Below are positions 20,101 through 61,800 of a DNA stretch of 64,000 nucleotides, one piece after another. Source of the DNA: Mesostigma viride. Its lineage: Eukaryota; Streptophyta; Mesostigmatophyceae; Mesostigmatales; Mesostigmataceae. Below the pieces are notes generated by a model that ran no database searches, had not been told where the DNA came from, and worked only from the letters and a program-made list of their open reading frames with translations. Numbering within the stretch: position 1 is the first letter of the stretch; every line of letters starts with the position of its first letter. The stretch covers positions 1,857,569-1,921,568 of the forward strand of contig RPFO01000667.1 in assembly GCA_009746045.1 (NCBI GenBank), in the 5' to 3' direction. Both the position numbers and the translations under genes were made by a program.

Positions 20101-21050
20101 TGCTACTCTCTAGACAAAGGCTTCATGGTAGGATATTACTTACGTAGTGTGTTTCTTTATTAGTATATCATGTACCTAAAACTTTTACTCAGGAGCCCAT
20201 TCTGGAGTATGGCACTGGAGACTCTCCATTGGCTACTCGCTGGTGATACTTGGCCCAGGTACTACATTACTGCTGCTGTAGTAACTAAGCGATCCAAGGT
20301 CAATGAGCTAGAAAGCAAACTGTGTTGGTTGTAGAGTAGGCAGGTAAATACTAGATAGGTATGTTGAAATAGGCTGATTTAGAGTACATTCTAGAAGTAT
20401 GTGTGACCCATTAGTTTTTTGTGCCACCTGCCTAATAATAATTTATGCCACCAGCACGGGAAATATTACTACCAGTACGGATAGATAATGCCATTCGACT
20501 CTTACAACTAATGCCACTGTGTTTGTGTGTGTGCACAGACATGGAATGGTGCCCATGGCCCAGCACGCCACACACCCATTGCGGGCGATGAAGGCAGCGT
20601 TGTGGTGTCTCCCTTTCAAATGCTAGTATAAAGTAATGCTGACCTATTGAATGCTAACCCATCAAATGCTAATCTAATTACATGCTAACCTATCAAATGC
20701 TGAGCTATCAAATGCTAACCTATCAAATGCTGACCTATCAACTGCTAACCTATCAAATTGACCCTATTTTATATGTGCGTATTAATGCACCCTATAATTA
20801 TTACTATGATTATGTGTATGTGCATATACCTGGGATGATGCCTACGCTCCAGCCTGCCGCAAAGACGCTGCTGGCGATGAAGGCGGCATTCTCTGGTCTG
20901 GTCTCTCGCTGCGCACTCGCCGACGTCAACAGCAAATCGCTGTCGGCCAATGTGCTGGCGCTCGCGGGCACACGCCCGAACTTGAAGCACTGGGAGGAGA
21001 GCCTGCCCAACGCGCTGAAGCAGTACTCCAAGGGCTGGGTCTCCTTCTAA
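1650..21050 (+). CDS. Spermidine-synthase-like SAM methyltransferase, whole gene (3 exons)
   Basis: Join 1650..2165, 3631..4050, 20853..21050: 377 codons plus stop, all introns phase 0 with GT-AG ends. The fold is a class I Rossmann methyltransferase of the spermidine-synthase-like group. The glycine-rich SAM loop IFGLGAGTCPR is split by intron 1 after IFGL. Next come the acidic residue ending beta2 (YGWELD), VADAL, and the motif-IV-like strand FDAIIVDIF. A C-terminal NVLALAG strand precedes the terminal GWVSF. The first 70 or so residues are Ala/Ser/Arg-rich and could be a plastid transit peptide (inference). The substrate is unknown; the family includes polyamine synthases and uncharacterised plastid methyltransferases, and I see no residues that settle which. 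The oddity is intron 2: 16.8 kb, about 90% of it one 38-bp minisatellite. No frameshift or stop breaks the coding sequence, so the gene looks intact. Confidence 0.8.
2697..3040. repeat. 53-bp C-rich minisatellite in methyltransferase intron 1
   Basis: About six copies of a unit containing CCATAGGATCCCCTCA, spaced 52-53 bp (for example at 2726, 2779, 2832, 2884, 2937, 2989). It lies in the 1.46-kb first intron. The rest of the intron (2166-2696, 3041-3630) is C-rich, with poly-C runs near 3275 and 3530, and shows no coding signal. Confidence 0.9.
3631..4050 (+). CDS. Methyltransferase exon 2 (catalytic core)
   Basis: A 420-bp exon of exactly 140 codons, between CCCCCTGCAG|GGC and GATCAG|GTGCGT. 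It starts with GAGTCPR of motif I, continues HEFWPSVKMYGWELDD (end of beta2 with the ribose-binding acidic residue), VADAL, FDAIIVDIF and IPEEF, then NPGGHVIMNLAG (beta5). These are the main cofactor-pocket elements of a class I methyltransferase. GC content is much higher than in the flanking introns. Confidence 0.85.
4095..19258. repeat. Giant 38-bp minisatellite, about 400 copies, in methyltransferase intron 2
   Basis: The unit reads GGTACGTGAAGCGTGTCTG followed by TTTGATCATCAAGGAAGAG and repeats head to tail with no spacers for about 15.1 kb. Three main forms alternate: TTTGATCATC (38 bp), TTTGGTCATC (38 bp) and TTTGTCATC (37 bp). A diverged proto-unit sits at 4095-4129. A rare form with GATCGGCGTGG appears near both ends (about 4476 and 19238), and TATGTG replaces TACGTG mainly near the ends. 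The core is extremely uniform. Short open frames in it are accidental; the unit carries TGA on the plus strand. The uniformity suggests recent expansion or ongoing homogenisation. Confidence 0.97.
19519..20016. repeat. Nested A-B...B-A direct-repeat structure
   Basis: A 14-bp word (ATGGATTACCTCTT) occurs at 19519-19532 and 20003-20016. Just inside each copy is an identical 46-bp direct repeat at 19538-19583 and 19957-20002, starting AGATTTGGGCAGC. The outer word is arranged like a target-site duplication and the inner repeats like short terminal direct repeats around a 373-bp interior that contains the tRNA-like element at 19807-19916. A duplication with rearrangement would give a similar picture. 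It lies in intron 2 of the methyltransferase gene, just downstream of the giant array. Confidence 0.75.
19807..19916 (+). mobile_element. tRNA-derived SINE-like element, copy 1
   Basis: Shares blocks in the same order with the minus-strand copy at 39615-39714: TTTCGCAGT, ATGCCTTCGGATCGGGAGAC (one mismatch), AGCCGCGAAATCATGC and GGTCCTATGTTCGA. TGTTCGATTCC resembles a pol III B box. The A-box region is degenerate in this copy. Two dispersed, diverged copies with a B box suggest a SINE. I cannot fold either into a proper tRNA cloverleaf. Confidence 0.5.
20541..20607 (+). pseudogene. Echo of methyltransferase exon 3 acceptor and exon start
   Basis: The block ATGGTGCCCATGGCCCAG followed by GGCGATGAAGGCAGC resembles the real junction 289 bp downstream (ATGATGCCTACGCTCCAG, then GGCGATGAAGGCGGC). 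It spans the intron end, the AG and the first codons, and reads MVPMAQ...RAMKAAL against MMPTLQ...LAMKAAF. It looks like a diverged tandem copy of the exon edge rather than a used exon, since using both would duplicate the motif. Confidence 0.6.
20640..20762. repeat. Short tandem repeat, 14-15 bp unit
   Basis: About eight copies of a unit like AATGCTAACCTATCA, with diverged first copies. It sits about 90 bp upstream of the exon 3 acceptor in intron 2. On the plus strand it reads open (LTYQM repeats), but this is not coding. Confidence 0.85.
20853..21050 (+). CDS. Methyltransferase exon 3 (terminal)
   Basis: Acceptor CTACGCTCCAG|CCT, phase 0, 65 codons then TAA at 21048-21050. It encodes TLLAMKAAFSGLVSRC (a helix), the strand NVLALAGTRP and the terminal helix LKHWEESLPNALKQYSKGW, which fits the C-terminal end of spermidine-synthase-like methyltransferases. 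Phase and content both match the end of exon 2 although 16.8 kb separates them. Confidence 0.8.
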   Translation, partial: PAAKTLLAMKAAFSGLVSRCALADVNSKSLSANVLALAGTRPNLKHWEESLPNALKQYSKGWVSF

Positions 21051-58800: not shown

Positions 58801-61800
58801 CTCACGATCAAAGGCACACGATCAAAGGCACACGATGAAAGCCCGTCCAGGTCCATCCCGCGTGTGTTCCGTGAATCGATGAGAAGCACCTACCCAAGAT
58901 ACGATAACCAGCGACGCATACCTCTACCATACCCCTTCCACTGCCTTATCTGATATCAACGTCCACGGCCAACAACAACTTTGGCACACCTATCGCTTCT
59001 ATCAGTACTTTGCTACCAATCTCTTCTAGGCTATCTCTGGCACACCTATCGCTTCTATCAGTACTTTGCTACCAATCTCTTCTAGGCTATCTCTGGCACA
59101 CCTATCGCTTCTATCAGTACTTTGCTACCAATCTTTTCTAGGCTATCTCTGGCACACCTATCGCTTCTATCAGTACTTTGCTACCAATTTCTTCTAGGCA
59201 ATCTCCTGTATCCTAGCATCCCACAGGCCTACCCCTTCAAGGAACACCACGCTGTCAATGCCCATCGGAAAGGACGACTCTCGCATACCTACCTCTTCTA
59301 TGCTTCTACCAGCGCTAGCATCCAATAGGCCTCCTCCTCCCCTACCCTAGCATCCAACAGACCCGCCTTTCCAGGTCCGCCGCGCTGCCAATGCCCATTC
59401 ACACGGACAACTCTCGAACACCCATCTCGATTATGCCATCTCCTATCCATCAACATCCGATCAGACCGACCTCTTCCAGATCCGCCACGCTGTCAATGTC
59501 CATTGACGACAGGCCACGGATCATCGTACAATGATCCTGGTCCGCGTCACTCCCCGACGCGGCGGATGCATTCAACCCAACCGGAGCCGAGGGCGAGGAA
59601 GCCAGCGCGGGGGAAGAAGTGGCAGAGGAGGAAGAAGCTGTGGAGGAAACGGCAGGGGCCGACGCGGCGCCGGCTTTTGCTGCCGTCATCACAGGGGGCT
59701 CGTCGGTGGCCAACGACACCCCCTGGGAGGGGCTGAGCAGATCGACCAGCCTCTCGTTGTAGGGGGACAGCGCGCCATCGTTGTGTTTGTTGCGATGGGT
59801 GCCGCTGGGGGTGTCACGTCGTGCGAGGGCTGTGGAGGGCCGGGGGGGGGACAGGAGTGCGACGGGGGCAGCAGATGGGGAGCATGTCATGCGAGGGCTG
59901 CGTGTGTGTGGATGTATGTGTGCATGTGCATGTGCGTGTGTGTGTGTGCATGTGCATGTGCGTGTGTGTGTGCATGTGCATGTGCGTGTGTGTGTGCGTG
60001 TGTGTGCGTGGGTGGGTGGCTGGGTGGCTGGGTGGGGTGTGTGGGGGGGTGGGGGGTGGGGGGTGGGGGGTCCGATCACGACGCCTGAACGGGTGCACAT
60101 GGGGGGGGGTCGTGGGGAACGCGTGCACATGGGGGGGTAGTGGGGAACGCGTGCATATGGGGGGGGGTGATGGCGGGCAACGCGCACTCAAGGCTTGGTG
60201 TAATGGCTAATGACTTTCGGACAAAGCGGTGCTAAACTGGCGCCGAGCTGGCGCCGAGCTGGCGCAAAACTGGTGCAAAACTGGTGCAAAACTGGTGCAA
60301 TATTGGTGCAAAGCTGGTGCAAAACTGGTGCAAAGCTGGTGCAAAACTGGTGCAAAACTGGTGCAAAACTGGTGCAAAACTGGTGCAAAACTGGTGCAAA
60401 ACTGGTGCAAAGCTGGTGCAAAACTGGTGCAAAGCTGGTGCAAAGCTGGTGCAAAACTGGTGCAAAACTGGTGCAAAACTGGTGCAAAGCTGGTGCAAAG
60501 CTGGTGCAAAACTGGTGCAAAGCTGGTGCAAAACTGGTGCTAAACTGGTGCAAAACTGGTGCAAAACTGTTGCAAAACTGGTGCAAAGCTGGTGCAAAAC
60601 TGTTGCAAAACTGGTGCAAAGCTGGTGCAAAGCTGGTGCAAAACTGGTGCTAAACTGGTGCAAAACTGGTGCAAAACTGTTGCAAAACTGGTGCAAAGCT
60701 GGTGCAAAACTGGTGCAAAACTGGTGCAAAGCTGGTGCAAAACTGGTGCAAAACTGGTGCAAAACTGGTGCAAAGCTGATATGCACATCTGTTGAGCCAT
60801 GCCAAGGCGATGCGAAAACCGCCAGACATTTACCAGCGTACGATGCCGTCAGCTTGCAGCCGGCACACGCCCCCCCCCCTTGCTGCCGGTGCTGCAGCAG
60901 GTAGGCGCAAGCCGCAGCGGCCGCTCGGGGGATGATTCCCTCTTGCTTGCCGCGGCCGCCGCCACTGCCACCATCAACGTCACCGTCGCCGTCATCATCG
61001 CCTGACGCACCCTCCAGGGTGTGGCTCTTGCCGGACTTGGGTGCCCCCAGGGCGAGCAGGGTGGCACTTTGGCCCTGGGGGGGGTAGAAGGGGGGGAGAA
61101 TGGAGGGGGGATGGGCAGGGGTAAGGCGGGAAGGGTTTGAAACAAGAGGGGTTGGAGCCAGGTCCCAGGGGAGGAAGCCGGATGGGTTGAAATTGAAGGG
61201 GAGTGTCCGCAAAATTGTTGTTACATTGACATGCTAAGGGTAATTTGTGGGTCAGCGACTAGGGGTGTGCACCACAACCTGCGTGACTGCACCCCTGCAG
61301 GGTGTCGGTTCGCTGGGAACTTTGAGGTAGCCTGAGGTAGCCTGAGGAGCGCGGTGGTGGCCTTGCAGGGTGTTGGCACTAGGCACTAGGCATACATGTA
61401 CGGTTGCATGGCACGCTAACATCCTAGTATGCATCATAGAGAACAGATGCTAGTACTTATACTTATAGTAGGCAACCAAACGCTAGTTATGACAGTTACG
61501 ATACGGCTAATTATGAACAGGGTTATCAGCCCTTGGTGATTTGGAAGTAATAAACGGGTGCAAGGGACAGTTTTACCCCGCCAGACAGATTTTTGTGGGA
61601 GACAGGCATGCTTTGTTGGAACGTAAGCCATGTCAACCCTAGCATGTAAACAAAGGTCCGTGGTCTGACAGTCTGCTGTCCTTGATCAGTAGTTTGTTTG
61701 GAACAAGTTTGGTAGGCAGTATAGGGGGGTTTCACAGTGCGCTCCAAGTCAGCGCCAATTATATGCTGCCAGGTGCAGCCTGTGCAATCTTTTCCACCCC

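Follow-up and report, generated by a model that had tools for sequence, protein, structure and literature searches.

Intronic copies of exon edges in Mesostigma viride as probable by-products of local duplication across splice junctions

Intron gain by tandem genomic duplication, or internal gene duplication, is treated in PMC3443670, where Gao and Lynch (2009) and Hellsten (2011) are among the references. In that process a segment with splice signals is duplicated in tandem, much as at the loci described here, but the outcome is a new intron within an exon, derived from a duplicated AGGT. In Mesostigma viride (Streptophyta), by contrast, an intron already present becomes longer, apparently with no change in where it is spliced. 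A second relative, cited in PMC2572611, is a minisatellite that, going by its title, has multiple splice donors, the units of an array each carrying one; that case concerns one transcript whose donors are, again by the title, in use, whereas in M. viride the edges of many genes are involved and are known from sequence alone. Here we describe copies of exon–intron junctions within the introns of this species, beginning with a window of 64,000 nucleotides (contig RPFO01000667.1, positions 1,857,569 to 1,921,568, in assembly GCA_009746045.1) that carries a predicted kinesin-like gene and an apparent methyltransferase-like gene, and extending to other kinesin genes of the genome.

The published genome of M. 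viride comprises 441,847,188 bp, with a mean intron of 1,141.87 bp and repeats making up 30.1% of intron space (PMC6947507). In the 439.9 Mb assembly searched here, in which the window falls on contig C2133, one encoded kinesin (L002) is 100% identical, across all 637 residues of the query, to a EukProt protein with the label Mesvir1, which we read as M. viride. These repeat-rich introns resemble our loci in being the background from which edge copies arise, but the passages of that paper drawn on here do not mention exon-edge copies, and the string 'splic' is absent from its main text. A literature search by title and start of abstract returned no paper on exon-edge copies in introns; most subscription journals lie outside its coverage, and we claim no absence. 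Splice-site duplication itself is already known, and what we add is its density, a split of the copies by age and a codon-position test: this is a known kind of event that is unusually dense in M. viride. We give a probability of about 0.84 to the reading that edge copies are a by-product of frequent local duplication across junctions, tandem when young and sheltered by splicing, and not a special splicing system.

Exon-edge copies in kinesin genes of the genome

The edge-copy pattern is real and common. A Pfam kinesin search of the genome gave 129 exon matches, and the 20 gene regions taken from it were modelled with a profile-based spliced aligner, yielding 126 introns; 20 of these were dropped for a flanking exon shorter than 30 bases or an intron shorter than 150, and 106 were used. 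At roughly one donor in five (21/106) the exon edge can be recognised again within the adjoining intron, as a copy scoring at least 16, and the same holds for 9/106 acceptors. Shuffled introns gave 0/1,060 matches for donors and 1/1,060 for acceptors, reverse complements 0/106 for each, and introns of other genes 0/1,001 and 1/1,001. An earlier sequence-only reading of the window had proposed comparing each exon and its flanks with its own introns against shuffled controls, and the pattern that it described recurs in the kinesin set. Exon-interior segments had no copies (0/71 and 0/68, or 0/139 overall), and among 1,030 intron-interior segments copies were found for 10.8% downstream and 11.6% upstream. 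Donors exceed both acceptors (p 0.029) and intron interiors (111/1,030; p 0.010).

In the youngest cases the copies form arrays. In seven introns of genes other than the window gene, Tandem Repeats Finder (TRF) detected head-to-tail arrays that cross the donor, having begun 16–32 bases back in the exon, with units of 22–70 bases and 2–7.2 copies. By gene region these include units of 70 bases in 2.4 copies (L042), 35 bases in 5.8 (L050), 29 bases in 5.1 (L047), 36 bases in 3.1 (L046) and 58 bases in 2.0 (L045), together with 22 bases in 7.2 copies and a second, weaker array of 25 bases in 2.2 copies, both in L038. The L038 intron that starts at 6131 (gene orientation) has an apparent GC-type donor, and the exon end there is the first unit of the 22-base array. 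Over all 106 introns, arrays run through eight donors and one acceptor, a count in which one per side is the same probable mis-model. TRF rows number 102 within introns (75,410 bp) and 1 wholly within modelled coding exons (18,487 bp).

That probable mis-model concerns two introns of L035, which we left out of the copy-dinucleotide counts, the edge profile and all subsequent analyses; the 21 donor and 9 acceptor matches still contain one L035 row each. At about 5800–6300 (gene orientation) this region carries a 63-base array of 6.4 copies, which the spliced aligner partly modelled as exon. Some kinesin matches have identical scores on contigs C2 and C622, and on C805, C1104 and C1926, as would be expected of redundant contigs or recent duplications.

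Position, age and decay of the copies

We profiled copies by position with 30-mers at a threshold score of 14 in 101 kinesin introns, the L035 pair and introns shorter than 250 bases having been dropped. On the donor side the counts climb from 0/87 at −60 and 6/97 at −30 to 21/101 at −10 and 20/101 at the junction; further in they fall to 9–11/101 from +10 to +80 and then rise to 17/101 at +150. Splitting the copies by identity separates two patterns. Those at least 95% identical number 5/101 at −10 versus 4–7/101 at +20 to +60 (9 at +100 and 10 at +150), whereas those below 95% number 16 versus 2–7 over the same positions. A split by score, with a maximum of 30, gives 6 versus 5–6 for scores of at least 22, and 15 versus 3–6 for scores from 14 to below 22. 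Only one of the 21 matches at −10 is aligned over fewer than 22 bases, so it is mainly divergence, and less so partial overlap, that keeps scores low at this position. The donor-edge peak therefore consists of diverged copies.

The sequence-only reading had suggested that exon edges are special, and this is not supported. By the comparison that it had itself named as a refutation, near-identical copies, in what are small numbers, are no commoner at donor junctions than at +20 to +60, and copies of any age are nearly as frequent at +150 as at −10. Acceptors have no edge peak at the same threshold (8/101 at −10 versus 7–11/101 at +20 to +60). High-scoring copies at +20 to +60 occur in 2 of the 101 introns at acceptors and in 7 at donors; scarcity near acceptors would be in line with constraint where the branch point and pyrimidine tract lie, although the difference is not significant (p 0.17).

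The way in which the copies have diverged is informative about their status. When the best copy is taken for each of 47 edges, exon and copy mismatch at 36/351 first codon positions (10.3%), 39/358 second positions (10.9%) and 78/355 third positions (22.0%), the third differing from the first two combined with p 1e-6. The 33 kinesin edges alone give 25/253, 29/257 and 57/253, and the 14 window edges, whose codon phases were assigned from open frames, give 11/98, 10/101 and 21/102. About 1:1:2 is expected where a neutrally evolving copy is set against an exon under constraint, because position 3 is free to change on both sides, and the observed pattern is that of a spare copy that is non-coding and decays neutrally.

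Origin of the copies and rival explanations

Young cases are junction-spanning tandem duplications, with homology on both the exon and the intron side. Repeated local duplication across junctions, as the sequence-only reading had it, is supported; strictly tandem structure is shown for the young cases, in the arrays at seven donors found by TRF and in that at exon 4 of the window gene. A test of unit homology, covering 32 of the 33 donor edges and 14 acceptor pairs, found the remainder of the unit homologous at p ≤ 0.05 in 14/32 donor pairs and 8/14 acceptor pairs.

The introns of M. viride carry many short local duplications, the copy lying about 25–350 bases from its original in most of the edge cases, and we envision that some of these straddle a splice junction by chance. 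Such a duplication would be silent when the spare copy is intronic and the outer splice site is still used, because splicing discards the spare copy; conservation of the protein suggests that splicing indeed uses the outer site. With selection holding the exon original and the spare copy decaying neutrally, junction-spanning pairs would remain recognisable for longer than purely intronic ones, and this longer visibility through the conserved original would produce the excess of diverged copies at donors. Silent spare copies would likewise explain why copies lie on the intron side, why they span the junction and why, in the kinesin set, none is found on the donor side deeper than about 60 exon bases. 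Some junction duplications would expand into minisatellites that have part of the exon in their first unit, and the donor-crossing arrays provide concrete cases of such minisatellites; the earlier suggestion that edge copies may seed satellites stands for minisatellites only.

Several observations weigh against this account. In 18/32 donor pairs and 6/14 acceptor pairs the remainder of the unit is not detectably homologous (p ≤ 0.05), and it can be unrelated even where the exon part is about 90% identical, as in L043 at offset 116 and L039 at offset 242, so that tandem duplication with point substitution alone is insufficient for such pairs. Several acceptor copies begin at CAG. The near-identical counts are small enough that there may be a modest preference for edges. 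The window gene is richer in donor copies (10/14) than the kinesin set (p 0.0002), the window having been chosen as striking, and all gene models, in the window as in the kinesin set, are predicted. In several edge pairs the copy lies 47 to 242 bases off with largely unrelated sequence between; the unrelated spacers of older pairs would be due to insertions, deletions and turnover of arrays after the duplication, and a second, non-tandem route of local copying may also operate.

We consider it improbable that junctions are copied by a process for which exon borders are units and which lays down spaced copies of 30–70 bases ending near the splice site; if it were true, exon edges would be a main source of new intronic satellites, and of the growth of introns, in this lineage. 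Slightly less probable in our estimate is a process that favours the duplication of junctions through a link to transcription or splicing, such as breakage or templated copying at the borders of exons. The surplus of donor-edge over intron-interior copies would follow from it, as would those copies that start or end near a splice site though the flanking intron is unrelated, but the surplus is missing among near-identical copies, and spaced short copies occur within introns too: of 47 intron-interior pairs, compared without gaps and hence with tandem structure understated, 27 are shorter than half their offset, 9 are intermediate and 11 are strictly tandem. We think it very unlikely that the direct repeats are target-site duplications or other traces of mobile elements next to exons. 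The unrelated sequence that separates many older pairs is what such elements might leave, yet the youngest cases are head-to-tail without an insert, copy length varies widely, and a 221-base query over the exon 17 pair of the window gene and its spacer matches only itself genome-wide, in a search that skipped simple repeats and concerned this spacer alone.

The sequence-only reading had seen the copies as a supply of decoy splice sites; they are that in sequence only. The original donor dinucleotide is retained in the best copies of 24/33 edges and AG in those of 13/14 acceptor edges, or in 19/20 when all acceptor copies from score 15 are tallied. With about 10.5% change per site, 80% retention is expected for two bases, so donor copies show no sign of retention or purging; AG is retained slightly above expectation at too few acceptor edges (n = 14) to tell. 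That selection maintains the copies as functional decoys or as alternative splice sites is accordingly a very doubtful proposition: the acceptor AG favours it, whereas retention of the donor dinucleotide does not exceed what is predicted under neutral decay, and codon positions 1 and 2 of the exon-derived part have decayed to about the same extent. We attach hardly any probability to chance similarity or low-complexity sequence. The window gene has GC-rich, coiled-coil-like exons, and of 500 45-mers from exon interiors of the window 12.6% reach a score of 16 with both sides searched, but the shuffles, reverse complements and foreign introns of the kinesin set yielded 2 matches in 4,334, which refutes chance as an account of the whole set.

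Whatever their route, each pair of edge and copy is a built-in control in which the same bases are constrained in one place and free in another within one genome, in a lineage without relatives in the genome set searched. Such pairs would allow the neutral rate, silent-site constraint at exon edges and the bypassing of close donor copies by the spliceosome to be measured.

The window gene and its edges

The kinesin-like gene of the window is read from the minus strand and extends from about 61.1 kb down to 24.8 kb, with exons predicted from open frames and GT/AG consensus; our exon numbering is near, but not identical to, that of the sequence-only reading. Its motor appears very divergent, since a Pfam scan of the motor pieces matched kinesin only with the P-loop exon, at 20.8 bits where the cut-off is 29.3. 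In protein searches the kinesin-like exons returned no match and the methyltransferase exon four short unnamed matches, and the window gene model is therefore without independent support. The predicted motor exons are followed at 50083–53502 by a very long low-complexity exon of 1,140 residues with Q and H runs.

Each window edge was compared, as 45 bases (30 of exon and 15 of intron), with the 600 adjoining bases by gapped local alignment at a threshold score of at least 16, and with 200 Markov shuffles of its own flank. Gapped alignment was chosen because indels hide copies from ungapped scans, and it supersedes earlier ungapped 24-mer scans, in which, with arrays masked and at least 19 matches required, 12.7% of junction-spanning and 6.0% of intron-interior segments had copies. 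The 14 donors and 9 acceptors counted leave out donor 26542, seen in a separate alignment, and acceptors that could not be placed. Ten of the 14 donors and four of the nine acceptors reach the threshold, and the same numbers beat the best of their shuffles. Nine donors are common to both groups of ten, donor 39324 scoring 16 against a best shuffle of 17 and donor 35355 scoring 14.5 against 11.5; single weak cases such as donor 39324 may be chance similarity. The majority of strong donor alignments cross the junction. Tandem array accounts for the masking of about one third of the gene, and of 1,500 45-mers drawn at random from intron interiors 48% have a local copy at this threshold too, so window edges are not clearly richer than introns.

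Nine coordinate comparisons taken from the sequence-only reading each show by eye the similarity claimed for them, with corrections of detail that we give below. At the donor whose last exon base is 59471 (GAG|GTCGGT; 59454–59507), the edge scores 31 with a wider query and 24 with the 45-base query (best shuffle 13.5), and two successive intron copies follow within 59226–59402 at offsets 105 and 238, the first with GC instead of GT and the second with GT. The donor with last exon base 57963 lies in a tandem array at 57847–57967 with copies at offsets 35, 70 and 105, all with GT; this is the exon 4 array, and its unit, in 3.5 copies, is 35 bases and not the 36 previously given. Near 55011 (54886–55030; score 27, best shuffle 12.5) the donor has a copy at about 54920–54947, a partial one beyond it and a 49-base tandem pair at 54886–54982. 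Donor 49067 has a copy 120 bases into the intron (48941–49090; score 21, best shuffle 12.5), and donor 41341 has one at 167 bases (41170–41370; score 18, best shuffle 12.5) with a weaker copy at offset 535, outside these coordinates. Three further donors with copies had escaped the sequence-only reading: 50083, with a copy at 201 bases (49863–50101; score 18.5 in a separate alignment and 17 with the 45-base query, best shuffle 14); 37877, at 222 bases (37648–37897; score 18.5, best shuffle 16.5); and 28002, at 341 bases (27654–28018; score 16, best shuffle 11.5).

Among the acceptors, the strongest is that at 29238 (29211–29333; score 31.5, best shuffle 12), where a copy about 90 bases upstream makes 29211–29241 and 29303–29333 identical over 31 bases. 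The acceptor with first exon base 41496 (41473–41732; score 29, best shuffle 13) has two upstream copies, both starting at CAG. At acceptor 32191 the copy lies 301 bases upstream (32181–32498; score 18.5, best shuffle 12). The acceptor at 38089 has a copy 113 bases upstream (38058–38209; score 21.5, best shuffle 14) and a weak second one 353 bases upstream, outside these coordinates, with a score of 15; the serial copies that had been described at 38178–38590 for exon 12 are thus confirmed in part, as these two. On the plus strand, in the methyltransferase-like gene, the acceptor region near 20853 (20541–20900) has a partial copy of exon 289 bases upstream, scoring 17–19 over three candidate acceptors without a shuffle control.

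Larger satellites also occur in the window. In the apparent methyltransferase-like gene a 38-base satellite of about 400 copies, with 98% matches, lies between exons at 4096–19263. Two adjacent satellites, with units of 47 bases (41941–44748) and 37 bases (45223–48117), fill one intron of the kinesin-like gene, and translations at 44833–45093 suggest that copies of acceptor edge 41496 continue past the first of these arrays.

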